A stretch of 53,943 nucleotides of DNA from Aminivibrio sp. (GTDB taxonomy: Bacteria; Synergistota; Synergistia; Synergistales; Aminobacteriaceae). Where the stretch lies: the NCBI RefSeq assembly GCF_016756745.1, contig NZ_JAESIH010000070.1, positions 1-53,943 of the forward strand. Reading direction: 5' to 3'. Position numbers and translations under genes: made by a program. Positions 16,228 through 37,095 of this stretch are shown here, in pieces (within the stretch, counting starts at the first letter, position 1; every line of letters begins with the position of its first letter). Below the pieces are notes generated by a model. That model was not told the DNA's origin. It made no database searches and worked only from the letters and a program-made list of their open reading frames with translations.

Positions 16228-18506
16228 GCCTCCTCAAGAGCTACCTTTCCTTCGCCCGGGGAGAAACGGCCCTCTCCCCCTGGGGAATCACCTACCCCTT
16301 CGGGGTTGTGGCCAGGGCCGTGGTATCCCTCCGGAACTTCGGCTACGACCACGGCCTCGTTCCTCCCGTGGAACCTCCCCTTCCTGTGGTCAGCGTGGGG
16401 AACATCACCCTGGGCGGGACAAACAAGACTCCCTTCGTGGAAATGCTCTGCCGCATGTTCCTCGAGGCGGGTATCCCCGTGGGGATTGTCAGCAGGGGGT
16501 ACGGCGGCACAACCAAGGATCCGGTGGTGCTCTCCTCGATCACCCTCCGGGAAAGCGACGGCTTCTGTGCGGAAGACATCGCCGCCCTCCGGGGGCTCGT
16601 GGGGGACGAACCGTTGCTGCTGGCCTCCCGGCTGCGGGGCGTCCCCGTGGCGGTGTCCAAGGACCGGCTCCGTGACATTGAAGCCCTCTCGGACAGGAAT
16701 GTGAAGCTCATAGTCGCCGACGACGCCTTCCAGCACCGGCGGATGGCCAGGGACGTGGATATCGCCCTGGTGGACGCCTGCTGCCCCTTCGGGAACGGGT
16801 GGGTGGCCCCCGCCGGCATTCTTCGGGAACCTCCCGCGGAGCTGTCCAGGGCATCCCTGGTGGTGATCACCAAGGCGGACCAGGTACCGGTCGAAAAGCT
16901 GCGCACCCTGACGGACGAGATCCGGCGCTTCGTGCCGGAAGAGAAGATTTTCTATTCCCGGCTCTCGGTTCCCACCTGGAGGCGGTGGAACGGGTGCTGG
17001 AGTGCGGAGTGCTGCGAAGCCCCCCGCACCGTCCTTGCCTTTTCCGCCATCGGAAGCCCGGAGAGTTTTCGGAGATCCCTGGAGCAGCAGGGAATAACCA
17101 TCGTCAGGGAACACCGGTTCAAGGACCACCACCGGTACGGCCGGGAAGACATGGAGATGCTCGAAAAAGCCTTCGCCGGGTGCGGGGCGGAAGCCATGAC
17201 CTGCACCGAGAAGGATATCTACAACCTCCCCACTGACTGGAGACCCTCCCGGGACATCCTCGTCCCCCTCATCTCCACGGAGCTCGACGACGAACCCCGC
17301 TTCCGGAAGGCTCTCGCGGGAGCCCTCCGGCCCAGGATCGTGGTGGCGTCCAACGGCTACGGCGAAGACTCCATGGGAGCCCTCCTGGCGAGAAAGTTCA
17401 GAGAACGGTTTCCCGTTGCGGCCGTCTCCTCCTTTCCCATCGTGGGCAAGGGGGAGCATTACCTCAGGGAAGGCATTCCAGTGGACTCGGTCCCCGAGGA
17501 TTCTCCCAGCGGCGGGGTCATCAAGTATCGCCTGTCCGACCTTTGGAGAGACCTCCGGTCGGGCCTTCTCCGCTCCATCGCCAGGCAGATGGGGGCGTGG
17601 AAGCGGCTCCGGGGGGCCATCCGCACTCCCGTCTGCGTGGGGGATGTCTACCTCCTGCTCCACGCCCTGTGGGGCCAGGGGCAGCTCCCCGTCCTGGTGG
17701 CCACGGCCAAAACGGTTTACCTCAGCGGTCACTGGCGGCTCGAACGGTTCATCATCAAGCACAGAAGCCGCATCGCCTGGACCCGGGACAGGGACACCGC
17801 CGAGGAACTTCTCCGGTCCGGCGCCACTGCCCGGTTCGACGGCAATCCCATAATGGACCTGACCTGTGATAATACTATCGAGAAGGTGGCATGGGGCGAA
17901 AAGGACGGTTTTCGGGTTCTCCTCCTGCCCGGCAGTCGCAGCAGGGCCTACCAGGACGTCCGGCTCCTTCTCGACGCCGTGGAGCTGCTGAGCGAACGCG
18001 TTTCCTGCTCATACCTCATGGTCATCGCCCCCACCCTCGACATGGAGGAACTGCTGGCATCCTGCCGGGGCTGGACCTCCTTCGAAGAGGACGGACGGAA
18101 AGGAATACGGAAAGGAAAGGCAACCATCTCCCTCTTCTTCGGTCCCCTTCCCGCCGTCACGGAGGGAGCCCACCTGCTCATCGGCCTGGGCGGCACGGCG
18201 AACCAGGTCTGTGCCGGTATGGGTGTACCCGTGGTGTCCATAGAGGAGAAGGGGAAGTTTGTGCAGAAAAAACTGCTCGGAGAATCGGAGCTCCTCGTCC
18301 CGCCCACGGCCCGGGACCTTGCCGGCGGCGCGGAGAAAATACTCGCCGATGAGGAACTCCGCCTCCGGATGGCCAGAGAGGGACGGGAGCGCCTCGGCGG
18401 TCCCGGCGCCCTCGACATGGTGGTGGAACACACCGCGTCCGCCATGGGATGGGAACTCCGGTGCGAAGTGTATTCGACGCTGTCGGAGCGCTGGGGCAGC
18501 GTATGA
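16224..18506 (+). CDS. lpxK: LpxK (tetraacyldisaccharide 4'-kinase) fused to an LpxB-related domain
   Basis: A 760-residue two-domain protein. Residues 1 to about 368 are LpxK, the membrane-associated kinase that phosphorylates the 4' position of the disaccharide. They carry the P-loop-like VVSVGNITLGGTNKTP (family GGTGKT, here N for G), SRGYGG, IVADDAFQHRR and AMTCTEKDIYNLP. Residues about 372-760 are a second GT-B-type domain beginning RIVVASNGYGEDSMGALLA, with LLLPGSRSRAYQDVRLLL and LLIGLGGTANQVCAGMGVPVV. These resemble the 'lipid-A-disaccharide synthase-related' family known as a separate protein in cyanobacteria and Deinococcus. E. coli LpxK is about 330 residues. The reading frame is continuous across the junction near 17335. 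The last 23 codons are repeated twice downstream. Confidence 0.9.
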   Translation: MSLLKSYLSFARGETALSPWGITYPFGVVARAVVSLRNFGYDHGLVPPVEPPLPVVSVGNITLGGTNKTPFVEMLCRMFLEAGIPVGIVSRGYGGTTKDPVVLSSITLRESDGFCAEDIAALRGLVGDEPLLLASRLRGVPVAVSKDRLRDIEALSDRNVKLIVADDAFQHRRMARDVDIALVDACCPFGNGWVAPAGILREPPAELSRASLVVITKADQVPVEKLRTLTDEIRRFVPEEKIFYSRLSVPTWRRWNGCWSAECCEAPRTVLAFSAIGSPESFRRSLEQQGITIVREHRFKDHHRYGREDMEMLEKAFAGCGAEAMTCTEKDIYNLPTDWRPSRDILVPLISTELDDEPRFRKALAGALRPRIVVASNGYGEDSMGALLARKFRERFPVAAVSSFPIVGKGEHYLREGIPVDSVPEDSPSGGVIKYRLSDLWRDLRSGLLRSIARQMGAWKRLRGAIRTPVCVGDVYLLLHALWGQGQLPVLVATAKTVYLSGHWRLERFIIKHRSRIAWTRDRDTAEELLRSGATARFDGNPIMDLTCDNTIEKVAWGEKDGFRVLLLPGSRSRAYQDVRLLLDAVELLSERVSCSYLMVIAPTLDMEELLASCRGWTSFEEDGRKGIRKGKATISLFFGPLPAVTEGAHLLIGLGGTANQVCAGMGVPVVSIEEKGKFVQKKLLGESELLVPPTARDLAGGAEKILADEELRLRMAREGRERLGGPGALDMVVEHTASAMGWELRCEVYSTLSERWGSV

Positions 18507-18634
18507 TTTTGTCAACCGGAAGCGTTTTTTTTCTGTCCGCCATGGGATGGGAACTCCGGTGCGAAGTGTATTCGATGCTGTCGGAGTGCTGGGGCAGCGT
18601 ATGATTTTGTCAACCGGAAGCGTTTTTTTTCTGT
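18437..18634. repeat. 98-bp tandem duplication of the lpxK 3' end
   Basis: The end of lpxK from GTCCGCC (18437) through the stop codon and the following T8 tract is repeated immediately at 18535. GTCCGCC occurs at both junctions, so 7 bp of microhomology bounds the unit. The second copy has two base changes (GATGCTG, GAGTGCTGG) against the native one (GACGCTG, GAGCGCTGG). Confidence 0.9.
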
Positions 18635-18763
18635 CATCCTGAGGAGCGCAGCGACGAAGGATCTGCCCTTGATTCTGACCTGCCTCAAGGGATCTCGATA
18701 CTGGTCCGCCCTGAATCAAAAAACCAGATCCCTCGTCGCATAAAACCGCTCCTCGGGATGACA
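18632..18763. repeat. 132-bp MITE-like element with long terminal inverted repeats, copy 1
   Basis: It begins TGTCATCCTGAGGAGCG and ends CGCTCCTCGGGATGACA. These ends are complementary with one mismatch, and inside them CGACGAAGGATCTG faces CAGATCCCTCGTCG. The arms are about 35 nt around a 58-nt centre. It has no coding capacity and is the same family as the arrays at the window ends and at 35650-37095, but here as a single clean unit. Confidence 0.8.
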
Positions 18764-18815
18764 AGCAAAGTCGAACAAACAAAGGATGAGTACTAACACT
18801 AGGAGATGATTCCAG

Positions 18816-18986
18816 ATGAGCGATAAAGAACAAAAAGCGGCCTTCACCCCGGTCCGGGTGGCAGACCTTTCCGGCGAGGGACGCTGGGATTTTGTCAACC
18901 GGAAGCGTTTTTTTCTGTCCGCCATGGGATGGGAACTCCGGTGCGAAGTGTATTCGACGCTGTCGGAGCGCTGGGGCAGCGTATGA
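18816..18986 (+). pseudogene. Chimeric 56-codon frame: kdsA start fused to lpxK tail
   Basis: The duplication created an open frame that uses a copy of the kdsA ribosome binding site (AGGAG) and ATG. It reads the first 27 residues of KdsA (MSDKEQKAAFT...RWDFV), then NRKRFFLS translated from the lpxK-downstream sequence, then the native LpxK C-terminus AMGWELRCEVYSTLSERWGS. The T tract at the junction has 7 T here against 8 in the other copies, which keeps the two halves in one frame. It lacks every KdsA catalytic residue, so it is a by-product of rearrangement unless shown to be expressed. Confidence 0.75.
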
Positions 18987-19013
18987 TTTAGTCAACCGGA
19001 AGCGTTTTTTTTC

Positions 19014-19145
19014 TGTCATCCTGAGGAGCGCAGCGACGAAGGATCTGCCCTTGATTCTGACCTGCCTCAAGGGATCTCGATACTGGTCCGCCCTGAATCA
19101 AAAAACCAGATCCCTCGTCGCATAAAACCGCTCCTCGGGATGACA
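19014..19145. repeat. 132-bp MITE-like element, copy 2
   Basis: This copy appears identical to the one at 18632-18763. It arose by the tandem duplication and not by a second insertion, because the flanks are duplicated too. Confidence 0.8.
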
Positions 19146-19146
19146 A

Positions 19147-19216
19147 GCAAAGTCGAACAAGCAAAGTCGAACAAACAAAGTCGAACAAACAAAGTCGAAC
19201 AAACAAAGTCGAACAA
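19147..19216. repeat. Five tandem copies of a 14-bp repeat before kdsA
   Basis: The unit RCAAAGTCGAACAA is repeated five times (the first two start with G, the others with A). The upstream duplicate has a single copy at 18765-18778. It ends 23 bp before the kdsA ribosome binding site and is a likely slipped-strand length polymorphism. Confidence 0.9.
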
Positions 19217-19253
19217 ACAAAGGATGAGTACTAACACTAGGAGATGATTCCAG

Positions 19254-20162
19254 ATGAGCGATAAAGAACAAAAAGCGGCCTTCACCCCGGTCCGGGTGGC
19301 AGACCTTTCCGGCGAGGGACGCTGGGATTTTGTCATAGGGGAGGGGAGCCTCGCCCTGATCGCAGGCCCCTGCGCCCTGGAAACCCCCGAACTGGGACTG
19401 GAGATCGCCGAGACGGTGCGGGACCTCTGCAGGCCCCTGGGAATCAACTACATCTTCAAGGCCTCCTTCGACAAGGCCAACCGCACGTCCCTGAAAGGAT
19501 TCCGGGGCCCCGGCCTGGAAGAGGGACTCATCCACCTGGCCCGCATCGGCCGGAAGGCCGGCGTTCCGGTGCTCACAGACATTCATGAATCATGGCAGGC
19601 CGATTCAGCCGCCCGTTCCGTGGACATCCTCCAGATACCGGCCTTTCTCTGCCGCCAGACGGACCTTCTCCTTGCCGCAGCCCGGACCGGCAGGCCCCTC
19701 AACGTGAAGAAGGCCCAGTTTCTCGCCCCCTGGGACATGAAGCATGTCCTGGAGAAATGCCGGGAGGGCGGAGCTCCTTCAGTGATGCTCTGCGAGCGGG
19801 GGACCACCATGGGGTACGGCCAGCTGGTGGTGGACATGCGGTCCCTGCCGGTCATGCGCTCCTTCGGTTGCCCCGTGGTCTTCGACGGCACCCACAGCGT
19901 CCAGATGCCGGGAGCCGCGGGCAGCGCAAGCGGCGGCGACCGCCGCTTCATCCTTCCCCTTGCCAGGGCCGCCGTCGCCGCCGGGGTGGACGCCCTTTTC
20001 CTGGAAACCCACCCCCGCCCGGAAAAAGCCCTCAGCGACGGCCCCAATCTCGTTCCCCTCAGGAAGATGAAGTTCCTCCTGGAGCAGCTTGCCGAGCTCC
20101 ACTCCCTGGTGAGGGACAGACTCGGCATGCCGTCCCTGGAGTGGGCCGGGGAGGATCGATGA
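19254..20162 (+). CDS. kdsA: 3-deoxy-8-phosphooctulonate synthase KdsA
   Basis: A 302-residue aldolase that condenses arabinose 5-phosphate with phosphoenolpyruvate to Kdo 8-phosphate. Motifs are LIAGPCALETPELGLEIAE, YIFKASFDKANRTSLKGFRG, LTDIHES, DILQIPAFLCRQTDLL, NVKKAQFLAPWDMK, CERGTTMGYGQLVVDMRSL and FDGTHSVQMPG. It is about 20 residues longer than E. coli KdsA through an N-terminal extension (residues 1-28). AGGAG at 19239-19243 precedes the ATG. Its 5' end and leader are present a second time upstream (18816). It begins the second Kdo block and is followed after 1 bp by kdsD. Confidence 0.95.
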   Translation: MSDKEQKAAFTPVRVADLSGEGRWDFVIGEGSLALIAGPCALETPELGLEIAETVRDLCRPLGINYIFKASFDKANRTSLKGFRGPGLEEGLIHLARIGRKAGVPVLTDIHESWQADSAARSVDILQIPAFLCRQTDLLLAAARTGRPLNVKKAQFLAPWDMKHVLEKCREGGAPSVMLCERGTTMGYGQLVVDMRSLPVMRSFGCPVVFDGTHSVQMPGAAGSASGGDRRFILPLARAAVAAGVDALFLETHPRPEKALSDGPNLVPLRKMKFLLEQLAELHSLVRDRLGMPSLEWAGEDR

Positions 20163-21220: not shown

Positions 21221-22486
21221 CTGAATCTCCTGCTGTACCGGGCCCTCGTCTCGGCGGTCTACCCGGTGGTCTACCCCTGGCTGGCGAAGAAATACGCCCC
21301 TGGCCTGAACGAGCGGCGGGCCCTTTATCCCGGGGAGAAGGCAGGCGGGTTTCCTGAACGGCCTCTCTGGATCCATGCTGTTTCGGTGGGGGAGGTGCAG
21401 TCCGCCTGGCCTCTTCTCGATCTGCTCGCTCGGGAGAATCCGGGAGAGCAGATCCTCCTCTCCACCACTACCGCCACGGGGCGGGAAACGGCCTTCCGCC
21501 TTGCTGACGGGCTTTTCGGAGAACACATCTACTACCCCTGGGATGTCCCTCGGATCGTCCGCCGGTCCCTCGACCGGATCCGCCCGAAAGGGTATATTGT
21601 GATGGAGACGGAAATCTGGCCCGCCATGCTCATGGAGCTGAAGAACCGCTCCATACCTGCCTTCCTGGCCAACGGACGCTTCTCCGAGAGGACGGCCCGG
21701 AATGTCCGGAAGCGTCCCTCTTTCTGGAGGCATGTCTACAATCTCTTTTCCCTGCTGCTGGTGCGCTCCGCCGCCGACCGGGATTTCCTGGCGGATCTGG
21801 GGGTTCCGGGAGAAAAGGTCCGGGTCACCGGCGACTGCAAGGTGGATGCCCTGCTGCTCCGGAAACGGGCGGCGGATCTTACCCGGATCCGGAAAATTGT
21901 GGCGGGACAAGGCCCCGTCTTCGTGGCGGGAAGCACACACCAGGGAGAGGAATCGATCGTCCTCGCCGCCTTCCGGCACGTACGGGCGCGGATCCCTGAA
22001 GCCCGGCTGGTCATTGCCCCCCGCCATCCGGAGAGAAGCGGGGACGTGCTGGAGGCGGCCTCACGGACGGCGGAAGCCGCCCTTCTGTCAGAAGCCGAAC
22101 GGCCCGGCGGGGCATCATGGGACATCCTCGTGATCGACCGGATCGGCGTGCTCTTCGACCTCTACGGTGTGTCCGACGGCGCCTTCATCGGCGGCAGCCT
22201 GGTGGACAAGGGCGGGCAGAACATCATGGAACCCGCCGTTTTCGGGATACCCTTTTCCCACGGCCCCTACATGCGGGATTTCGTGGAAGCGGCAGGGGAG
22301 CTGGAAAAACTGGGGGCGGCAACCCTCGTCAGGACAGAGGCGGAAATGGCCGCCCACTGGGAGCGGTGCCTGGACCGCAATGAACGGGAAAAGGCGCGCC
22401 TCGCCTCCGGTGCCTACTTTCAGGCTGCGGGGGGAGCCGCGAGGGTCACTCTCGAAGAAATCCGCAGGGAGATGACAAAGAAATGA
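21221..22486 (+). CDS. waaA: Kdo transferase WaaA (KdtA)
   Basis: A 421-residue GT30 transferase that adds Kdo to lipid IVA at the inner membrane. An N-terminal membrane anchor (LLLYRALVSAVYPVVYPWLAK) is followed by IHAVSVGEVQSAWPLLDLL (with the catalytic Glu), TTTATGRETAFRL, METEIWPAMLMELK, VTGDCKVDALLL, VAGSTHQGEE, VIAPRHPER and the Kdo-transferase signature FIGGSLVDKGGQNIMEPAVFG. No ATG, GTG or TTG lies in frame between 21098 and the anchor. CTG at 21221 stands about 9 bp after GGCGGGGG, gives a length close to the 425 of E. coli WaaA, and aligns with its N-terminus. ATG 21098 would overlap kdsD by over 120 bp. Confidence 0.92.
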   Translation: MNLLLYRALVSAVYPVVYPWLAKKYAPGLNERRALYPGEKAGGFPERPLWIHAVSVGEVQSAWPLLDLLARENPGEQILLSTTTATGRETAFRLADGLFGEHIYYPWDVPRIVRRSLDRIRPKGYIVMETEIWPAMLMELKNRSIPAFLANGRFSERTARNVRKRPSFWRHVYNLFSLLLVRSAADRDFLADLGVPGEKVRVTGDCKVDALLLRKRAADLTRIRKIVAGQGPVFVAGSTHQGEESIVLAAFRHVRARIPEARLVIAPRHPERSGDVLEAASRTAEAALLSEAERPGGASWDILVIDRIGVLFDLYGVSDGAFIGGSLVDKGGQNIMEPAVFGIPFSHGPYMRDFVEAAGELEKLGAATLVRTEAEMAAHWERCLDRNEREKARLASGAYFQAAGGAARVTLEEIRREMTKK

Positions 22487-22707
22487 CCATCAATGAACAA
22501 CTTCTGAATGAATACTACGGGTCCTTCGGTGAACGCTCCAGAGCGGCCCTGGACGAAAGGGCGGAATCCCCTGAGCGGCTCCCGATCCTGGAGCCCGGCT
22601 GCCCCATGACGGCGGCGGTCGCCCGGGTGAAGGGCGGACAGAGCGTGGACACGCCCGATGACCTGGAGAACGTGCGGGCAATCTTCCGGGAGATGGAAAA
22701 GGAGTGA
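22483..22707 (+). pseudogene. KdsB (CMP-Kdo synthetase) C-terminal remnant, 74 codons
   Basis: A 74-codon frame whose second half (SPERLPILEPG...GQSVDTPDDLENVRAI) matches the extreme C-terminus of CMP-Kdo synthetases, including the family ending 'VDTPEDLERVR'. All nucleotide- and Kdo-binding motifs of the roughly 250-residue enzyme are absent. The ATG overlaps the waaA stop as ATGA, where a full kdsB would be expected in this gene order, so an internal deletion fusing start and tail is likely. It could still be translated. Working KdsB is needed for WaaA, so a functional copy should lie elsewhere. Confidence 0.65.
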
Positions 22708-22711
22708 TACC

Positions 22712-23887
22712 GTGACGGCCTGTCCCTCCCTGGTCTTTCTTCTGAGCGATGGCATCCGGGGTCACCTCTTCCAGGGAAGGGGCGTCGCCGGGTGGCTCTC
22801 CCGCTTCACCGGGGCCGACGTGGTTGAAATGGACGTTCCCCGTCCCACAGGGTGGGAGCGGATCAGCCTCTTTCAATGGAAGGCCCGGTTTCTTCCCTCC
22901 ATGGACGGCGCCGGGGCTGCCCGCTGGATTGAAGAAGCCGGCGCGGGGCACCTGCTTGACAGTGCGAAGCACGAGCTGACCGCAAAGAAATGCGGCGGAA
23001 ACACAGCCCTCTTTCTCTCCGCGGGGAGCGGCGCCGCCCCCTTCACCCTCGCCCTCGCCAGGGCGACAGGGCAGAAATGCTGCACCATCATGACCCCGTC
23101 GGTGCTGGGGACGGCTCCCTTCGATTTTGCCGTTGTTCCCGAGCACGACCATCCGGAAAAAAGGAACAACGTTCTTTCCACCCTCGGGGCGCCGAACGCC
23201 ATATTCCCCGACGAACTCGAGCTGAAAGGGTGGGAGCTTGCCCAGAAATACCCCCCCGGAGAAACGGACGGGCAGGAGAACCGGTGGGGTGTGCTCGTGG
23301 GGGGCGATGACGCAAACTACCGGGTTTCGCCTGAATGGGTGCGCCGGACTATAGGGCCGATTCTCGAAGTTGGCAGAACAGCGGGCGCCGACATCTACAT
23401 CACCACCTCCAGGCGGACCAGCCCGGAGGCCGAGGAGGAACTGCTCAGACTGACGGAAGGCCATCCCTCGGTAAGGATGGTCCTTCTCGCGTCAAAGGAC
23501 CCCTTCAATCCCGTTCCCGGCATGCTCGGACTCTGCCCCCGCATATTCGTCACCGAGGACTCCGTTTCCATGGTCTCCGAGGCAGTTACCGCAGGCAGGG
23601 AGGTTTTCCTCCTCAGGACCGGACGGCAGAGCCGTGCCGGGACGGCCCTTCAGGAGGCGACGGCCTTCCTGGTAAGAAAAAGACTCCTTCCGGGAAGCTG
23701 CCTCTGGGGAATACCCCGGTTCGACGCCCTTTTCTCCGGTCTTGCCTCCAGGGGATTTCTGAAAGAAGCCCCCTATGATAAACTGTATACGTCAACGGGG
23801 ACATCCGTGTCCCTCCACCCGGATGGTCCGGTCCTCAACGAGGCGAAGCGTGCTGCGGAGTGGATTGTGGAGAAATGGGGAGTTTAG
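22712..23887 (+). CDS. ELM1/GtrOC1 family putative glycosyltransferase (DUF1022)
   Basis: A 391-residue member of the family named after plant ELM1, which in bacteria occurs in LPS loci and is predicted to be a GT-B glycosyltransferase. Seen features are FLLSDGIRGHLFQGRGVAGWL at the start, FLSAGSGAAPFTLALAR, FDFAVVPEHDHPEKRNN, WGVLVGGDDANYRVSPEW, IYITTSRRTSPEAEEEL and FVTEDSVSMVSEAVTAGREVFLL. This last segment is the sugar-nucleotide-site-like one. The GTG start lies 4 bp after the kdsB remnant. Its last few codons are duplicated around 27941, ahead of the second glycosyltransferase pair. Confidence 0.82.
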   Translation: MTACPSLVFLLSDGIRGHLFQGRGVAGWLSRFTGADVVEMDVPRPTGWERISLFQWKARFLPSMDGAGAARWIEEAGAGHLLDSAKHELTAKKCGGNTALFLSAGSGAAPFTLALARATGQKCCTIMTPSVLGTAPFDFAVVPEHDHPEKRNNVLSTLGAPNAIFPDELELKGWELAQKYPPGETDGQENRWGVLVGGDDANYRVSPEWVRRTIGPILEVGRTAGADIYITTSRRTSPEAEEELLRLTEGHPSVRMVLLASKDPFNPVPGMLGLCPRIFVTEDSVSMVSEAVTAGREVFLLRTGRQSRAGTALQEATAFLVRKRLLPGSCLWGIPRFDALFSGLASRGFLKEAPYDKLYTSTGTSVSLHPDGPVLNEAKRAAEWIVEKWGV

Positions 23888-23936
23888 CGGCAAAAGGAAT
23901 TGCGTTTTCGAATTCCAGCCGAAGGGGATGTGCTGT

Positions 23937-25019
23937 GTGAAGGTTCTTTTTTGCTCTGATTCCATGATAGTCGATGGTGTGACGTCCTTTGTATTTCACC
24001 TTTCCACTGCATTGAAAGAAGCCGGACACGATGTTGCCGTGCTGGGCCGATGGGCAGGAAAAGGCTACCAGCCCCGACTCCGCGAAAGAGGCGTTACAGT
24101 TATTCAGTGTCTTTCTCCTACTGTCGGTAACTTTTGGTTTGATAGGAAAGCAAAAGAATTTTCACCTGACGTTATAGTGACCGATTCAAGACGTTCCTTT
24201 CCCTTGGCTGCAAGACTGAAACAAATCACCGGCGCGAAGGTGTTGACGTTTTTTCTTGATAGGCTCCAGAAGACTGACCGCAAGGGAAGGGATCTTGATT
24301 CACTGATCCGCTTCAGTGACGCGTGGTTGTGTGCGGAACCGCCGTTACTCGAAGAACTGAACCGGATAAAGACGCCGTTTCCCAAATTTCTTTTTCAGAG
24401 ACCTCTCAAGGGGCTCATCACGCCAACCCCCCTTCCGGGAAAGGACCCTTTCCGGGTGCTGTGTTTCGGCCGGATCAGCGGATACAAATCAGCAGGGGCC
24501 TGGTCTATTCTGAAAGAGGCGACCCGACTCAAAAAAAACATTCCTTCCCTCGAAATAGCATTTGTCGGCGGGGGATGGAGAACGGTCAAGTTCAGGCTTG
24601 CCGCCTTGAGAGCAAACCTCGCGATGAAGGAATCGTTTATCAGAGTACTGGGAACTCAGACAAATCCCGATAAGTGGTTCAATTGGGCGTCCCTCGTCTG
24701 TGCGGGTTCGACATCGGCCATAGAAGCGGTGCTGGCTCACAGGCCTGTGGTGGCCTTATCGGCATTCTGGATCGGAGAGATTACCCCGGATACATTGGAC
24801 AAGGCATTTGACTTCTATTTCGCCGAACGCGGCGGAGCTTTTTTGGTGAGGGATCACCCTGAGGTAGTTGTTCAGGAAATATTGAACATATATGAAAAAT
24901 GGGACCAGGAAAATGTTGAAAAATCTGTAACATCGGTCAGAAAAAAGGTCGAGCCCCGTTTCGAAAGGAAGACGGCGGCAGGAGAGTTTCAACGAATCGT
25001 GGACGTACTTTCCGGATAG
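23937..25019 (+). CDS. GT-B type glycosyltransferase, LPS cluster
   Basis: A 360-residue protein with a two-Rossmann layout. The N-terminal domain opens VKVLFCSDSMIVDGVTSFVFHLSTALKE, typical of GT4-like enzymes, and the C-terminal domain has FRVLCFGRISGYKSAGAWSILKEA, LEIAFVGGGWR and VCAGSTSAIEAVLAHRPVVAL. The donor and acceptor sugars cannot be told. The GTG at 23937 is preferred because AAGGGG lies 9 bp before it and the paralogue at 28031 starts at the same point; ATG 23928 is an alternative. It is the intact member of a duplicated gene whose other copy (28031) has lost about 140 codons. Confidence 0.8.
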   Translation: MKVLFCSDSMIVDGVTSFVFHLSTALKEAGHDVAVLGRWAGKGYQPRLRERGVTVIQCLSPTVGNFWFDRKAKEFSPDVIVTDSRRSFPLAARLKQITGAKVLTFFLDRLQKTDRKGRDLDSLIRFSDAWLCAEPPLLEELNRIKTPFPKFLFQRPLKGLITPTPLPGKDPFRVLCFGRISGYKSAGAWSILKEATRLKKNIPSLEIAFVGGGWRTVKFRLAALRANLAMKESFIRVLGTQTNPDKWFNWASLVCAGSTSAIEAVLAHRPVVALSAFWIGEITPDTLDKAFDFYFAERGGAFLVRDHPEVVVQEILNIYEKWDQENVEKSVTSVRKKVEPRFERKTAAGEFQRIVDVLSG

Positions 25020-25048
25020 GCCTAAGTGACCTGTCCGGAAAAAAATAT

Positions 25049-25545
25049 ATGAAAATTTTGCGCGTAATGCCGGAAATGCATGAAGGCGGAGCAGAGAGGC
25101 ATGTCCTTTGGTTATCGAATGAACTGTCGGCCATGGGGCAGGATGGGGTTGCCGTTTCTGCAGGAGGAAAACTTGAAGCTGATGTGCACGATGTTCAAAC
25201 TGTCAATCCGCCGGTACACACCTAAATCCTCATTCCGCTTTGGTTTTAGCTGTACAGGTCGCTCGTATCGCAAAAAACAAAGAATCGAAACGATTCATGC
25301 TCGCTCGAAGGTTTCCCCATGGATTGGCTGGTGGACCTCACTTTTCCCGGAGATTCCCCGGGTTGCGACATACCGCGGATTGTACGGCAGGAAAGCAGGG
25401 TCCCATCCTTACTCGAAGGCGCATCCGCTTATAGTGTACGCCAAGAGTGCGGGATTATTTCTCTCCTATTCAGAGAGTCTTGTGTGGTCGTGGTTCTTGA
25501 CGGGTTGTCCGAAACGCCTTTATCCTGGCAGACTTCTGGTTCGGA
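25049..25545 (+). pseudogene. Decayed GT4 glycosyltransferase (paralogue of the gene at 28680)
   Basis: The first 58 codons (MKILRVMPEMHEGGAERHVL...) align with the intact gene at 28680 (MNIIHILPEMDEGGVERHVL...) and then stop at TAA 25223-25225. Similarity continues through frame changes: ETIHARSKVSPWIGWW near 25288 matches EVIHAHSRVPAWIAYW, and VVLDGLSETPLSWQ near 25492-25535 matches VILNGMPETNFSW. The C-terminal nucleotide-sugar-binding half is missing, because the O-antigen ligase gene begins right after. Overlapping open frames here are shadows of this ruin. Confidence 0.88.
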
Positions 25546-25552
25546 GGATTGC

Positions 25553-26827
25553 ATGGTAATGTATTTAAATCCACTGTGTAAATGGGGATGGAGATCCATT
25601 TCCCTTGTCGAATTCGGTTTTCTCTGGTCCGTTTTCTTTGCATTCTGGGGACCTGTCCCCAGGTATTTCGGCTGGCTGATAGCGATCATCGGCCTGTTGG
25701 CGGAATTTATCAGGAAGAAAAAAGCTGTGTCTTCGCTCGATAGAAAGGTGCAAATTCTGCTTTTGTTTATACTCGTGTGGGGTTTTTTCCCGAGTTTTTT
25801 CAGGCTCCCTGATCTGTATTCATTTATAAAAGGGTACTCGTTGGTTTTGGAATTTGCATTTTCTTTATGGATCGCCGCAAGGCTCTATTCCGAAGAAATG
25901 ATCAAAAGATTTTGGAGTGTATTCTTGCTGACGGCTGTTATATCGTCTATTTATTCTCTTTTTCTTTTTTTCTCTAAAAATCATTTTGCCGGAATTTACA
26001 GCAATATCTTAAGTCTGGGACTGCACGGAGTAGTCATACTCCCCTTTGTGCTCTCCCGGGCTTTTAGCAATGGGACGAATTGTTTTTTTTGGATATTGTC
26101 TGCCGGAGTTTTCGTGTTAATAGCCATTAGTTCCAGTTCAGGAGCGTGGACGACAAGCGTTTTTTGTCTGTTTTTTCTCTGCGTTCTGGGCGGAAAAAGC
26201 TACCTGAAGAAAATTTTGCTTCTGCTTTTTCTGTTTATTGCCTTGTTTGGCGGAATGGTGGGGATTCTTGAGAAAACAAATCCCGCGTTAAAAAAACAAC
26301 TTGTTACATACATGACGCGAGAATACAGCCAGCTAACGTCTTTTCATGATTTTGGAAAGTTCACTACAAATAGAGCGTTTATTTGGAAAGGTTCTCTGAA
26401 TCTTATAAAAAAATACCCGATTTCAGGGTGGGGATGGGGAGCTTTTTCCGAGCCATTTGCGCAGGTGAACAAAAGTTGGTGGAACGAAAAACAAACAGGA
26501 ATGAAAGTTGATCGCATTTACGACTCCCACAATATGTATCTTAATCTTGCAACTTACGCGGGAATTCCGTCGCTGGTAGCGGTGGTATTAATTTTTATTT
26601 TTGCGGCATACAAATCTTTTCTGTATTCAAGAATGTGCTTCGAAAACCGCTGGTTCTGGATTGCGGTATGTGTTTCTGTTCCTTCGATCCTTTTTTTGGG
26701 TTTTGGGGGAGATATTTTTTCAATCCGTTATAAATTTGCCTGTGTTTTCTGGTATTTATTGGGATTTGCCTGTAAAGCGGCTGGAAATGAGACAACACAA
26801 GGAATATGCTCTGAAACTGAAACATGA
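25553..26827 (+). CDS. O-antigen ligase/polymerase family membrane protein
   Basis: A 424-residue polytopic protein of the Wzy_C (WaaL/Wzy) type, with about ten to eleven TM helices. The diagnostic part is the large periplasmic loop and its borders: LIAISSSSGAW at the end of one helix, TNRAFIWKGSLNLIKKYPISGWGWGAFSEPF, then DSHNMYLNLATYAGIPSLVAVVLIFIF, matching the conserved 'G.G.g.f' and 'HN.yL' features. It would join O-antigen or other glycan to lipid A-core, or polymerise repeat units. GGAGG (25543-25547) precedes the ATG; a second in-frame ATG lies 6 bp on. Base composition is clearly more AT-rich than the lipid A operon, a sign of exchange common at LPS loci. Confidence 0.82.
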   Translation: MVMYLNPLCKWGWRSISLVEFGFLWSVFFAFWGPVPRYFGWLIAIIGLLAEFIRKKKAVSSLDRKVQILLLFILVWGFFPSFFRLPDLYSFIKGYSLVLEFAFSLWIAARLYSEEMIKRFWSVFLLTAVISSIYSLFLFFSKNHFAGIYSNILSLGLHGVVILPFVLSRAFSNGTNCFFWILSAGVFVLIAISSSSGAWTTSVFCLFFLCVLGGKSYLKKILLLLFLFIALFGGMVGILEKTNPALKKQLVTYMTREYSQLTSFHDFGKFTTNRAFIWKGSLNLIKKYPISGWGWGAFSEPFAQVNKSWWNEKQTGMKVDRIYDSHNMYLNLATYAGIPSLVAVVLIFIFAAYKSFLYSRMCFENRWFWIAVCVSVPSILFLGFGGDIFSIRYKFACVFWYLLGFACKAAGNETTQGICSETET

Positions 26828-27011
26828 AGAGACGGCAAAACCTGCCGGGCTTTGGGGGCCTCCGAGGCCCAATCATGATAAAAACGGGACATGGATACAC
26901 AAAGCTACCTTCTGTCCTTGCGGGTATTTTCAGAGAATCAAGCCGCCCATCATCGAATTTGTGGCATCAGCATGCTTTTGGGAAAGCACACCGGAAAGTG
27001 AAGGTGATTCT

Positions 27012-27818
27012 ATGATTCCCCTGTCGGTATATTTCGTTACCTTAAATGAAGAGAAACGGCTGTCCCTTGCCCTCGAGAAGGCCGCTCTTGTCGCTGATGA
27101 GATTGTGGTCGTGGACTCGGGCAGTGTTGATGGAACGGAATCAGTGGCAAGAAAATATGGAGCTGTTTTTATTTTTCATCCGTGGGAATCCATAGGTCAC
27201 CAGGTAAGTTTTGCTGAAAAGTGTTGCTCGAACCGGTGGGTGCTGCGCCTTGACGCGGATGAAGTGCTCTCCGATGAACTTGTCGAGGAGATCAAAAGGG
27301 TAAAGGAGGAGCCTCGATACCACGGCTACAAAGTGAGGATTGGAAACATGTTTCCCGGCAGGAGCGCTCCGATTCGCTGGGTGAAGCATTACCGGTGGGT
27401 CCGGCTCTACAATCGTGACGCCATGGAAATGAGCGGTAGGTTAGGCCATGATGACGTTGTCTTCAAGATCAAAAACCCCAGAATAAAAACTCTTCACGGC
27501 TTTGTGCACCATTTCTCCTATTTTGGCCTGAACAACCTTTTCCGGAAACGCCTCCGGGCATCGGACATGCAGCTCAAGAGAGCGATAGAGGAGCGGAAAA
27601 GTTATTCTCCATGGAGGATGGTCGGAGCCTTGCCTCTCAATGTTCTTAAAGTTTTTATTCTCGACCGCTTCTTTCTTTACGGGTTTTGGGGGTTTATCTT
27701 CGCGGTAAGCGTCGGACATCATCGTTTCCTGAAATTTGCCAAGTTCTATGAGTATGATTGCCTGTCAAAACATGGATATCTTGGACTTGAAGATACCCTG
27801 ACTGACTGGGAAAAATGA
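27012..27818 (+). CDS. Family 2 glycosyltransferase (WaaE/KdtX-like)
   Basis: A 268-residue GT-A enzyme resembling the LPS-core beta-1,4-glucosyltransferase family. The N-terminus VYFVTLNEEKRLSLALE, VDEIVVVDSGSVDGT-type motif (ADEIVVVDSGSVDGTESVA), the DxD-like WVLRLDADEVLSDEL and the C-terminal HHFSYFGLNNLFRKRLRAS are all as in that family. The chosen ATG follows AAGGTGATTC. The same frame is open for about 400 bp upstream but that part overlaps the ligase gene. It stands alone after a 184-bp gap, before the second glycosyltransferase pair. Confidence 0.85.
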   Translation: MIPLSVYFVTLNEEKRLSLALEKAALVADEIVVVDSGSVDGTESVARKYGAVFIFHPWESIGHQVSFAEKCCSNRWVLRLDADEVLSDELVEEIKRVKEEPRYHGYKVRIGNMFPGRSAPIRWVKHYRWVRLYNRDAMEMSGRLGHDDVVFKIKNPRIKTLHGFVHHFSYFGLNNLFRKRLRASDMQLKRAIEERKSYSPWRMVGALPLNVLKVFILDRFFLYGFWGFIFAVSVGHHRFLKFAKFYEYDCLSKHGYLGLEDTLTDWEK

Positions 27819-27940
27819 TCTTTGCCCGGTCAAGCTGATGAAATGAAAAATGTATAATACAGCAATAGTACGTATTTCCAATTGCGGAAGGAATGTACTG
27901 AAAGCAAAATTCTCTTCGCCTTGTGCTTATTGGCTGAAAA

Positions 27941-28030
27941 GCAGAGTGGATTGTGGAACGGCGGAGCGGTGCATGAACCGGAATTTCCCTTTCCCGGCCT
28001 TCGATTTGATAACCTGAAGGAAAAGAGCTG
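27941..28030. repeat. Duplicated leader containing the end of the ELM1 gene
   Basis: GCAGAGTGGATTGTGGA at 27941 matches GCGGAGTGGATTGTGGA near the end of the ELM1-family gene, and weaker similarity continues to the next start codon. It marks the left border of the block duplicated from the 23860-25545 region. The rest of 27819-28030 shows nothing else. Confidence 0.65.
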
Positions 28031-28669
28031 ATGCCGATGAACGTTCTTTTTTGTTCCGACGCCCTCATTGCGGATGGGGCGGCATCCTTTGTTTTTCATC
28101 TCTCTGCGGCTCTTGCCCGGTCGGGGACGGATGCTGCCGTCCTGGGCGGATGGGCCGGAAAGGGACTCCAGTCGCGGCTGCGGAAGGATGGCGTCAGGGT
28201 CAATCAGCGCCTTTTCCCCACGGTCGGGAACGTTTGGTATGACCGTAAGGCCGGGGAGTTTGCCCCTGACGCCATCCTCACCGGTTCGCGGCGTTCTTTC
28301 CCTCCCGCCGCCCGATCGAAGGCTGTCGCAGGAGCGAAGGTCCTCACCTTTCTTCCTGACAGCCTGGAAAAAACCGACCGCGGGGGACCGGACGCGGATT
28401 CTCCGATCCGCTGCAGCGATGCGTGGCGTGCCGCGGAACCTCCGCTGCCGGAGGGAAGTGGGACGGTTGTGGTGAGAGAACATCCTGAATTGATTCCAAG
28501 GGAAACCCTGAACGTCTGTGAAAACCGGGACCATGCGAAAATGGAAGAGTCGGGGGCTTTTCTCAGGTGGGGAATCGAACCCCGTTTCGAACGGGAGAAT
28601 GCCCCGGACGAATTTCGCAGCATCGTAAACGAGCTCGGTGTACAGCCTTTCCGGGGATCCGGGGCGTGA
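28031..28669 (+). pseudogene. Glycosyltransferase paralogue with internal in-frame deletion
   Basis: A 212-codon frame that aligns with the intact gene at 23937 from the start (MNVLFCSDALIADGAASFVF) through SDAWRAAEPPLPE. It then jumps to VVVREHPELIPRETLNV, which matches LVRDHPEVVVQEILNI near the end of the intact protein. About 140 residues, including the whole nucleotide-sugar part of the C-terminal domain, are missing, yet the frame is kept. It is unlikely to be an active transferase. Base composition is more GC-rich than its paralogue, so the copies have been diverging for some time. Confidence 0.8.
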
Positions 28670-28679
28670 AACTGACCCC

Positions 28680-29705
28680 ATGAATATTATCCACATTCTT
28701 CCGGAAATGGACGAGGGCGGTGTTGAACGGCATGTCCTGTGGCTGGCGAACGAACTGGCGGCCCTGGGGCATAATGTCACCGTCGTTTCTGCGGGAGGAA
28801 AGCTGGAAGCCCAGTTGAAAGGCGTTAAAATCGTCCATCTGCCGGTGCACCGGAAAAACCCCCTGACGGCACTGTATTCTTCGGTCAGAGTCGCCCGGAT
28901 CGCGAAAAGTGAAAAGGCGGAGGTCATTCATGCCCATTCAAGAGTGCCGGCATGGATAGCTTACTGGGCTGCGAGGATGGCCGGAATTCCTTTTGTAGTC
29001 ACTGCTCACGGCGTATTCAGCAACAAGACGGCATGGATTTATCGTCCCTACAGGAAGGCCGGCAGGGTGATCTGTGTCAGTTCAGCCGTGAAAAAAACCA
29101 TGGAGTCATTTTTCGGCAATAATACGACAGTTATCCTCAACGGAATGCCGGAAACGAATTTTTCCTGGAAGGGGCCTGCGGACGGAATAACCCGTTTTCT
29201 CTTTATCGGTCGCCTTACGTCTTTGAAGGGGATTCAGGACTTGGTGGAAGTTCTTCCCGGACTTGACGGTGACTGGATTTTTGACGTAGTGGGAGACGGT
29301 CCGCTTTTTAGTTCACTGTCGGCAAGAATTAAAGAACTTGGGCTGAGTGAACGGGTTTTCCTCCATGGTTTCCGGGATGATACGGATCGCCGGCTTTCGG
29401 AGTGCTCTTGCCTCCTGTTTCCCTCCTACACCGAAGGGATGCCCCTGACACTGGCCAGGGCGGTCCAGATGGGAGTGCCGGTACTTGCCTCATCCATCCC
29501 CCCCGTCATCGAGATGGCTGAAACCGAAGAAGGACTATTGCCGCCGGGAGAAAAAGATGTTTGGAGGCGGACGTTGCAGGGATTTATGGAAGGAAATTCT
29601 GTCCTTTCCCGTTTCTCCCCGGAGAAAATCCCGACGGTAAAAAAAATGACTGACGGAGTTGAGGCAGTATATGCGGAAGTCTGCGCGGAGGGAGAGAAAA
29701 AATGA
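28680..29705 (+). CDS. GT4-family glycosyltransferase
   Basis: A 341-residue GT-B enzyme. Motifs are IIHILPEMDEGGVERHVLWLANEL, VIHAHSRVPAWIAYWAA, TRFLFIGRLTSLKGIQDLVEVLPGL, FDVVGDGPLFSSL and the E-x7-E region FPSYTEGMPLTLARAVQMGVPVLAS. It probably adds a hexose or heptose to the LPS core or O-chain. The ATG at 28680 lines up with the pseudogene at 25049; a GTG at 28638 is in frame. No clear ribosome binding site is seen, so coupling to the upstream broken gene is possible. It is the intact member of its duplicated pair. Confidence 0.86.
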   Translation: MNIIHILPEMDEGGVERHVLWLANELAALGHNVTVVSAGGKLEAQLKGVKIVHLPVHRKNPLTALYSSVRVARIAKSEKAEVIHAHSRVPAWIAYWAARMAGIPFVVTAHGVFSNKTAWIYRPYRKAGRVICVSSAVKKTMESFFGNNTTVILNGMPETNFSWKGPADGITRFLFIGRLTSLKGIQDLVEVLPGLDGDWIFDVVGDGPLFSSLSARIKELGLSERVFLHGFRDDTDRRLSECSCLLFPSYTEGMPLTLARAVQMGVPVLASSIPPVIEMAETEEGLLPPGEKDVWRRTLQGFMEGNSVLSRFSPEKIPTVKKMTDGVEAVYAEVCAEGEKK

Positions 29706-30775
29706 GAATCCTCCATTATGTGAATGAAGCCAATCTTGCGTGGGGGCGTCCGTGGGTCCAGCTTCTTCTTAGCCTGGAGGAAATGGGATTGAGGAATGTC
29801 GTACTCTGTCCTCCCGGGGGGACTCTCGCCCGGCTGCTCGAAGAGTACTCGGTTCCCCATATCTATTCAGGAGCTTTGGTTCCGTGGTTTCCTCCCTTCT
29901 GCAAAGGAGTGGGGAATGCCATTGAAAAAATCCGTCCCGATGTGCTCCACACCCGGCTTTCTTCCGCAGCCTTCATTGGCGGTTATTGGGGAAGCCGGCT
30001 CGGAATCCCTGTTGTTTCCACAATCGATAAGTATCCCCGGAAAAAATACTACTATATGAATTCTGGTGTTATTGTCGGATGTTCCGCTGCCGTATCAGCG
30101 CACATGGAAAAAATTGGTTTCCCCGCGGACCGGATTGTCACAATCCGCAATCCGGTGGATAGCGACTTCTACCAGCGCTCCTCGGAAGAAAGAAGCAGGA
30201 TCCGAAACACTGCAGGCGTTTCGGAAGACGACGTTGTGTTTTTGGGGCTTGGGCGATTCGTGGACTGGAAGGCTTTTGACATCCTCATCCAGGCGTGCGC
30301 AAGGATTCCGAAAACTGCAAAGTGGCGGTTATGGCTTGTGGGAGACGGGCCGGAACACAAAAAATTGAAACGGCTTGTAGATGAGTACGCTTTGGAGGAC
30401 CGAACCTTATTCTGGGGGTATGTCTCTGATGTTCGCCCGTTTCTCTGGGGTGCCGATTTTTTTGTACAACCTTCGAACAAACCGGAGGGATTCAGTCTCG
30501 CCCTCCTCGAAGCCATGGCCGCAGGGCTCCCCGCAGCCGCGACGAAAATTGGCGGTACTCTGGATATTTTAGATGGAGGCGGAGTGTTTCCTTGTGAGCC
30601 GGATGATGTTGAAGAGCTGCGCGCTATTCTCGAAACCTTTCTCTCGCTTTCAAAAGAAGAACGGGATGCTCTGGGGCGCGATTCCTTGAAATCATCATCC
30701 CGTTTTTCCGTGCAGGTAATTGCAAAACAGTATTCGGAGTTGTACCGTGCGTGCTTTGCCCTGCCCCCGATTTGA
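29702..30775 (+). CDS. GT4-family glycosyltransferase
   Basis: A 357-residue GT-B enzyme. The N-terminal domain has MRILHYVNEANLAWGRPWVQ and DVLHTRLSSAAFIGGYWG. The C-terminal domain has VVFLGLGRFVDWKAFDILIQA, WRLWLVGDGPEHKKLKRLV, LFWGYVSDVRPFLWGADFFV and the Glu-rich donor site KPEGFSLALLEAMAAGLPAAAT. Its start overlaps the previous stop as ATGA, so both transferases are made together. It closes the LPS glycan cluster. Confidence 0.87.
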   Translation: MRILHYVNEANLAWGRPWVQLLLSLEEMGLRNVVLCPPGGTLARLLEEYSVPHIYSGALVPWFPPFCKGVGNAIEKIRPDVLHTRLSSAAFIGGYWGSRLGIPVVSTIDKYPRKKYYYMNSGVIVGCSAAVSAHMEKIGFPADRIVTIRNPVDSDFYQRSSEERSRIRNTAGVSEDDVVFLGLGRFVDWKAFDILIQACARIPKTAKWRLWLVGDGPEHKKLKRLVDEYALEDRTLFWGYVSDVRPFLWGADFFVQPSNKPEGFSLALLEAMAAGLPAAATKIGGTLDILDGGGVFPCEPDDVEELRAILETFLSLSKEERDALGRDSLKSSSRFSVQVIAKQYSELYRACFALPPI

Positions 30776-35649: not shown

Positions 35650-37095
35650 TCTTGTCATCCTGAGCGATAGCGATCGCAGAAGGACTTGATTCTTGTCATC
35701 CTGAGCGATAGCGATCGCAGAAGGCCCTGATTCTTGTCATCCTGAGCGAAGCGATCGCGCAGCATCCCGAGCCCAGCGAGGGGAGGATCTCGGTCCTGGT
35801 CTTTCGTCCCGAGCCCAGCGAGGGGAGGATCTCGGTCCTGGTCTTTCGTCCCGAGCCCAGCGAAGGAAGCATTTCGCTTTTGTCATCCTGAGGAGCATAG
35901 CGACGATCGCGCAGCATCCCGAGCCCAGCGAGGGGAGGATCTCGGGGTTGGTCCTCAGAATGACAACAAGGGCGAGATCCTTCGGCCATAAACCCGGCCT
36001 CAGGATGACAAACCGCTTTTGTCCTCCTGAGCGATAGCGATCGCGGAAGGACCTGATTCTTGTCATCCTGAGCGAAGCGATCGCAGAAGGCCCTGATTCT
36101 TGTCATCCTGAGCGAAGCGATCGCAGAAGGCCCTGGTTCTTGTCATCCTGAGCGAAGCGAAGGATCTCGGTCCTGGTCTTTCGTCCCGAGCCCAGCGAGG
36201 GGAGGATCTCGGTCCTGGTCTTTCGTCCCGAGCCCAGCGAAGGAAGCATTTCGCTTTTGTCATCCTGAGGAGCATAGCGACGAAGGATCTCGGGGTTGGT
36301 CCTCAGAATGACAACAAAGGCGAGATTCTTCGGGCTTCGCCCTCAGAATGACAACAAAGGCGAGATCCTTCGGCCAAAAAGCCGGCCTCAGGATGACAGA
36401 ACAGACGTCCTCCTGAGCGCAGCGATCGCGGAAGGACCTGATTCTTGTCATCCTGAGCGATAGCGATCGCAGAAGGACCTGGTTCTTGTCATCCTGAGCG
36501 AAGCGATCGCAGAAGGCCCTGGTTCTTGTCATCCTGAGCGAAGCGATCGCGTAGCATCCCGAGCCCAGCGAGGGGAGGATCTCGGTCCTGGTCTTTCGTC
36601 CCGAGCCCAGCGAGGGGAGGATCTCGGTCCTGGTCTTTCGTCCCGAGCCCAGCGAAGGAAGCATTTCGCTTTTGTCATCCTGAGGAGCATAGCGACGAAG
36701 GATCTCGGGGTTGGTCCTCAGAATGACAACAAAGGCGGGATTCTTCGGGCTTCGCCCTCAGAATGACAACAAAGGCGAGATCCTTCGGCCATAAACCCGG
36801 CCTCAGGATGACAAACCGCTTTTGTCGTCCTGAGCGAAGCGATCGCGGAAGGACCTGATTCTTGTCATCCTGAGGAGCATAGCGACGATCGCGCAGCATC
36901 CCGAGCCCAGCGAGGGGAGGATCTCGGGGTTGGTCCTTCGCCCCTCAAGACCGGGATTCTTCGGGCTTCGCCCTCAGAATGACAAACCGCTTTTGTCATC
37001 CTGAGGAGCCCAGCGACGATCGCGCAGCATCCCGAGCCCAGCGAGGGGAGGATCTCGGGCTTCGCCCTCAGAATGACAACAAGGGCAAGGGCAGA
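35650..37095. repeat. Interspersed-repeat array, middle
   Basis: About 1.45 kb with no gene. It is built of modules such as TTGTCATCCTGAGCGAAGCG, 'GAGCCCAGCGAGGGGAGGA' + TCTCGGTCC, CGGGCTTCGCCCTCAGAATG and CCTTCGGCCA...CCGGCCTCAGGATGAC, in changing order. The octamer GCGATCGC occurs at least ten times, alternating with GCGAAGGATC in otherwise the same context. It starts 7 bp after the DUF4392 stop and ends about 65 bp before the araD stop codon. Confidence 0.92.

Follow-up and report, generated by a model that had tools for sequence, protein, structure and literature searches.

In the surface-polysaccharide loci of Enterobacteriales, the co-location of genes eases the transfer of alleles and genes by homologous recombination (PMC7305143), and in such mosaic loci sugar genes are swapped between conserved genes. 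Here we describe a lipopolysaccharide (LPS) core cluster of Aminivibrio sp., a member of the Synergistota, in which two glycosyltransferase genes, named A and B below, lie twice behind a gene of the ELM1 family. The locus resembles the mosaic loci in that sugar genes have been exchanged between conserved genes, whereas it differs from them in that old alleles are stacked rather than cleanly swapped, that relics and a hybrid gene persist, and that the host belongs to the Synergistota. It also resembles a tandem duplication with reciprocal loss, showing two units, complementary decay and one working copy per gene, but its units predate the split of this genome from its closest congeners and one of the two surviving genes is a recombinant. 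Searches of the literature found no report of reciprocal loss, or of hybrid glycosyltransferase genes, in loci of this kind. The kind of event is ordinary remodelling of a surface-polysaccharide locus, unusually well preserved, and the locus thereby keeps a normally erased intermediate of surface-polysaccharide turnover, with both alleles, the crossover gene and the relics in place.

The DNA analysed was a whole contig of 53,943 nucleotides (the window; contig C70 of a genome of 2.94 Mb in 100 contigs), and all coordinates are positions in it. The comparisons covered four other genomes of the genus, three of which (G001, G002 and G004) carry the studied stretch, as well as 61 relatives from the order and 83 genomes of the family. 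The LPS core cluster, comprising lpxK, kdsA, kdsD, kdtA, ELM1, the glycosyltransferases and a Wzy_C ligase, occupies 16–31 kb of the window. The features of the exchanged region, all on the + strand, are as follows.

22658..23887, + strand: ELM1-family gene (Mito_fiss_Elm1, PF06258; Pfam E 3e-48); its start codon may be at about 22730
23937..25019, + strand: A1, whole GT4-type glycosyltransferase A, 360 residues, GTG start (Pfam Glyco_trans_4_4, Glyco_trans_1_4)
25049..25546 (approximate), + strand: B1, what remains of glycosyltransferase B, ~170 codons from its start (matched piecewise by tblastn in several frames)
25553..26827 (start at 25553 or 25559), + strand: Wzy_C-type O-antigen ligase (Pfam E 2.7e-13)
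27012..27818, + strand: GT2 glycosyltransferase (Pfam E 1.6e-13)
27941..27976, + strand: probable relic of the ELM1 3' end (AEWIVERRSGA*), directly before A2 (shuffle tests)
28031 or 28037..28669, + strand: A2, open frame without the equivalent of A1 residues 140–296, junction at ~28451 (alignment to A1)
28680..28922, + strand: 5' part of B2, codons ~1–81, B1-like and foreign to the genus (synonymous divergence, rare states shared with B1)
28923..28940, + strand: recombination junction in the stretch coding for the motif HAHSRVPAW (max-chi-square, alignment)
28923..29705, + strand: 3' part of B2, 259 codons, genus type (tree, synonymous divergence)
29702..30775, + strand: GT4c, native glycosyltransferase downstream of B (88% identical to that of G002, in the same place after B)

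An earlier note, made from the window alone, had read this region as a block of ELM1 end, A and B present twice, with the ligase and GT2 genes lying between the copies. The observation was confirmed: the two A copies share 69% DNA identity over 412 nucleotides (E 2e-34), the two B copies share 72% over 171 nucleotides (E 7e-22), and the Wzy_C and GT2 Pfam matches fall between them. The same note had described copy 1 as a whole A with a ruined B, and copy 2 as a coreless A with a whole B. In the protein alignment, A2 matched A1 at residues 1–139 (68% identity, E 7.7e-55) and 297–358 (44%, E 1.5e-9), and the equivalent of residues 140–296 was deleted from A2 in frame. Conversely, the match of B1 to B2 covers the first ~170 codons, is spread over several frames and includes an in-frame TAA; the C-terminal half is missing and the ligase gene follows directly, whereas B2 (28680–29705) is a whole open gene. 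The alignments and the TAA and frame breaks in B1 thus bear out the description of both copies.

The substitutions in A2 extend beyond the deletion. At 108 positions invariant in seven close homologues of A, A2 departed at 30 and A1 at 9, and each homologue, when left out in turn as a control, showed 0–9 differences. At 56 positions invariant in all other homologues of A, A2 differed at 12, several of them changes of leucine to proline, and A1 at one. In addition, both Rossmann-like halves of a GT4 enzyme were matched by Pfam models in A1 and in B2, whereas A2 matched the N-terminal model alone, and weakly. Judged from these patterns, A2 is dead despite an open frame without a stop codon, and A1 looks alive. 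The complementary loss that left one intact A and one intact B, as the earlier note had proposed, is therefore borne out by the 30 and 9 changes at the 108 positions.

A1 and B2 match the models of GT4 enzymes of LPS core and O-chain synthesis (Glyco_trans_4_4, Glyco_transf_4, Glycos_transf_1) and lie beside kdsA, kdsD, kdtA and lpxK. Unlike typical members, however, A1 gave a weak Pfam match and matched none of the NCBIfam models, and B2 scored below every curated cut-off among those models. The closest matches of A1 were 64–70% identical and came from another genus of the family and from another family, with no closer source for a donor in the genomes searched; the homologues of A found by name belonged to the Synergistota, mostly to metagenome-assembled genomes (MAGs) of Synergistaceae. 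One contig in this material, 8,539 bases long and with the same number and match (L086/L087), occurred in two MAGs, Planc_01, named as Phycisphaerales, and Syner_01, named as Synergistales; since these are two phyla, one of the binnings must be wrong.

The working copy of B was found to be a hybrid, which the earlier note had not seen. Over its first ~80 codons B2 has low identity to the congeners, after which the identity rises to the genus level. At window position 28927, DNA identity stepped from 0.60 to 0.84 against G002 and from 0.64 to 0.85 against G001, and the max-chi-square break lay at this position against both genomes, with none of 1000 shuffles giving a break as strong. The control comparison of G001 with G002 showed no such step at the same position (0.84 and 0.88). 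Synonymous divergence (dS) to the congeners also stepped, from 1.75–2.0 before the break to about 0.5 after it, so relaxed constraint on the protein alone does not explain the change. In trees, the C-terminal part of B2 fell in a clade with G001 and G002 (support 99/98), and forcing the N-terminal part to group with the same two genomes was rejected by the approximately unbiased (AU) test (p 0.013). Conversely, the 5' part of B2 shares the rare residues M10, A44 and V71 with B1, with which it grouped at a support of 78/0. These results, a sharp change of relatedness within a conserved gene seen alike in the break, the trees and the dS step, indicate that B2 joins a foreign 5' part (the first ~80–82 codons) to a native 3' part (259 codons). 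The conserved HAHSRVPAW motif, in which the junction lies, is a natural place for a homologous crossover.

The two A copies are old. Their synonymous differences are saturated (proportion of synonymous differences, pS, 0.75; dS 4.5 or undefined), whereas dS to G002 was 0.36 for KdtA, 0.42 for ELM1 and 0.35 for GT4c, and the range over KdtA, ELM1, GT4c and the C-terminal part of B2 was 0.35–0.53. These values demonstrate that the separation of A1 from A2 is much older than that of this genome from its closest congeners. In addition, the four congener genomes compared gave no match to A; of these, G003 is a weak witness, lacking matches for B, HldE, mutS and mutL as well as for A. Since A1 and A2 are older than the congener split and the congeners lack A, duplication in this lineage is unlikely, and the copies would have been imported, whether one by one or together as a pair that had diverged before. 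A grouping of A1 with A2 was the best in the tree (82–87% bootstrap), and the AU test did not reject A1 or A2 placed with other genera; the tree suffers from too few columns and from a fast-evolving A2, and it was dropped as proof that the copies are direct sisters. The assumption of the earlier note that the A copies are each other's closest relatives is thus favoured by the tree, with other placements not rejected.

On the left side, ELM1 is 85% identical to its congener counterparts, with no drop in identity at the C-terminus. By this measure ELM1 is native to the genus up to its end and is the putative left edge of the exchanged block. The DNA score of the 36-nucleotide ELM1 tail before A2 was beaten by only 1–2 of 1000 shuffles and its protein score by 9 of 1000, and the upstream alignment running through to A by 3 of 2000. 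The tail is therefore a probable rather than a certain relic, and of the second block described in the earlier note it is this element that stands only as probable.

The comparison of gene order places the exchange between the same flanks. The order in G001, G002 and G004 is kdtA, a 403-residue gene, kdsB, ELM1, a gene of the GSU2086 family, HldE, B and GT4c, without A, and in the window the segment from the GSU2086-family gene to HldE has been replaced. In G001, B is followed by a GT4c of lower similarity (39%), and the gene of the GSU2086 family that precedes HldE is cut short (L048:7831-8210), so that the ELM1–B interval is eroding in that genome too. In other genera, ELM1 and B are directly adjacent (G010, G017, G021, G026 and G045). 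ELM1 is followed by A in G036, G061 and G062. Intact ELM1–A–B was found in G041 and G058, Synergistota MAGs from another family of the order, whose A and B are 64% and 41–45% identical to those of the window; this module adjoins ELM1 uninterrupted and differs in being single-copy. The gene-order comparison suggested in the earlier note thus yielded an intact pair outside the genus, in one copy, and no A in the genomes of the genus compared. Overall, A is present in 11 of the 61 relatives and in 18 of the 83 family genomes. Given that gene content differs in this way between the same conserved flanks among relatives, the ELM1-to-B interval is, as far as gene order can tell, a site of repeated exchange.

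No match for HldE was found in this genome, whereas three congeners gave HldE matches with the identical query (e.g. L047:8408-9892), so the LPS of this organism may lack heptose. Across the 61 relatives, A and HldE are mutually exclusive (HldE in 1 of 11 genomes with A and in 40 of 50 without; p 2e-5). This exclusion fails inside the genus g16 (3/12 vs 5/31, p 0.66), and two g9 genomes carry both genes; a replacement of heptose by the product of A was thus not upheld there and serves as a lead only.

Taken together, these results suggest that homologous recombination at ELM1 and B probably placed divergent ELM1–A–B alleles one behind the other, after which they were pruned. In this scheme, the LPS core cluster would have been rebuilt with ELM1 as the left edge and B as the right edge, the congener-type GSU2086-family gene, hldE and the first ~82 codons of B being replaced, presumably in two separate imports, one after the other. 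The result would have been a tandem of native ELM1, A1, B1, ligase, GT2, ELM1 tail, A2 and B2. A right crossover inside the HAHSRVPAW motif of B would have made B2 a hybrid, and the ELM1 tail would be the trace expected if the block had recombined into the 3' end of ELM1. The redundancy would then have been pruned, A2 losing its core and drifting and B1 losing its 3' half and its frame, which leaves A1 and the hybrid B2 apparently functional, presumably adding core sugars to Kdo (3-deoxy-D-manno-octulosonic acid)-lipid A. If so, a gene swap in the LPS core can use the conserved ELM1 and B genes as its route and eliminate the synthesis of ADP-heptose.

Composition leans towards two sources, the GC content being 0.42–0.51 for A1–B1–ligase–GT2, 0.61 for A2 and 0.62 for ELM1, but this is weak evidence because the LPS genes of the genus are low in GC anyway. 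Besides this, several observations weigh against stacking by recombination. The tree pairs A1 with A2 in preference to any other partner, the alternatives being not rejected, and the ELM1 tail is 36 nucleotides long. The N-terminal part of B2 grouped with all three congeners together was not rejected (AU p 0.37), and dS between B1 and the 5' part of B2 was 0.87 (over 58 codons only), below that between A1 and A2. No donor was found among the genomes searched. Given the grouping of A1 with A2 and the similarity between B1 and the 5' part of B2, the two units could also descend from one module that was duplicated in a donor.

Such an origin, an ancient A–B duplication in the donor whose tandem moved as one block with its right crossover in the native B, the reciprocal decay occurring here or in the donor, would account for the same hybrid junction in B2, for the best grouping of A1 with A2 and for the residues M10, A44 and V71 common to B1 and the 5' part of B2. 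However, no tandem pair was found in any genome examined, and the GC content at third codon positions (GC3) over the shared part differs between A1 (0.47) and A2 (0.63) despite the supposed single history. We consider this origin unlikely. Stacking at ELM1 and B remains the preferred reading also over that of the earlier note, in which the ELM1 end, A and B were duplicated in tandem within this lineage, the ligase and GT2 genes were inserted later and the copies decayed in a complementary manner. The block order, the ELM1 tail and the complementary decay are what this scenario predicts, and the grouping of A1 with A2 was not rejected, but it is strongly disfavoured by the saturated divergence of A1 and A2 against a flanking dS of 0.35–0.42 to the nearest congeners, by the lack of an A match in the four congener genomes and by a B2 whose 3' part, and not its 5' part, is of the native genus type. 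The synonymous divergence that the earlier note had asked for thus showed copies older than the split from the congeners, and its interpretation is partly supported. An assembly or binning artefact, namely a contig in which sequences of two strains have been fused at the conserved motif of B, is very improbable: although the assembly consists of 100 contigs and no part of B is more conserved than that around the junction, no second A or B was found in the genome outside this contig, the right-hand sequence is 84–85% like the congeners and identical to neither, the estimated contamination is 1%, and an assembler cannot create decayed relics.

The relics also offer a rare direct look at the drift of unconstrained DNA in a GC-rich member of the phylum. 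Besides A2 and B1, a third relic lies at the left of the cluster:

22483..22707, + strand: fusion relic between kdtA and ELM1, a small ORF in which the start of the 403-residue gene runs into the final ~48 codons of kdsB (tblastn: residues 1–71 of the 403-residue protein; KdsB residues 203–250, 67%)

The 403-residue gene and kdsB of the congeners are otherwise gone at this locus. Another kdsB match of the genome lies at G000:C51:71853-72548 and is 47% identical to the kdsB of a congener.

Substitutions were scored in A2 (28037–28669), B1 (25049–25451) and the kdsB end (22561–22704) at sites conserved in intact homologues. Changes from AT to GC and from GC to AT numbered 24/107 and 4/123 in A2, 12/54 and 5/62 in B1, and 11/48 and 7/88 in the kdsB relic. 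When the three relics were pooled, 47 of 209 AT sites had changed to GC and 16 of 273 GC sites to AT (odds ratio 4.8, p 1.5e-7), in a small sample of three relics on one contig, of which B1 and kdsB alone are only marginal. The threshold for conserved sites matters, A2 scored with 13 references giving 17/92 vs 4/90 (p 0.004). Per site, AT changed to GC about four times as readily as GC to AT, which implies a neutral equilibrium near 79% GC, a value similar to the GC3 of housekeeping genes in the cluster, whereas A1 showed the opposite tendency (AT to GC 5/113, GC to AT 17/149). Neutral DNA of this lineage may thus drift towards GC, which would point to GC-biased gene conversion or mutation rather than codon selection, although we hold this tentatively and at somewhat less than even confidence. 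One paper has reportedly argued for biased gene conversion in bacteria. The decay towards GC is opposite to the usual AT-biased decay of bacterial pseudogenes: bacteria, and the pseudogenes of M. leprae, show an excess of changes from GC to AT (PMC2936529), and in most bacterial genomes above 40% GC the GC content is drifting downward (PMC8153448). Loss of mismatch repair as the cause of the GC drift of A2 was rejected, as mutS and mutL are present in this genome.

The Wzy_C ligase is 54% identical to the ligase of the congeners, which there sits downstream of GT4c; the place behind GT4c, where the congeners have ligase and GT9 genes, lacks them in this genome. None of the four congener genomes gave a match to the GT2 gene.

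Two repeat clusters were seen elsewhere in the window. The intergenic stretch after lpxK (18437–19300) holds near-identical repeats, with 259 nucleotides present twice (98%), 101 nucleotides three times and a 14-nucleotide tandem unit. A second cluster, at 35652–36398, carries the motif TTGTCATCCTGAGCGA..GCGATCGC as well as 128-nucleotide copies at 98% identity, and resembles dispersed intergenic repeats.

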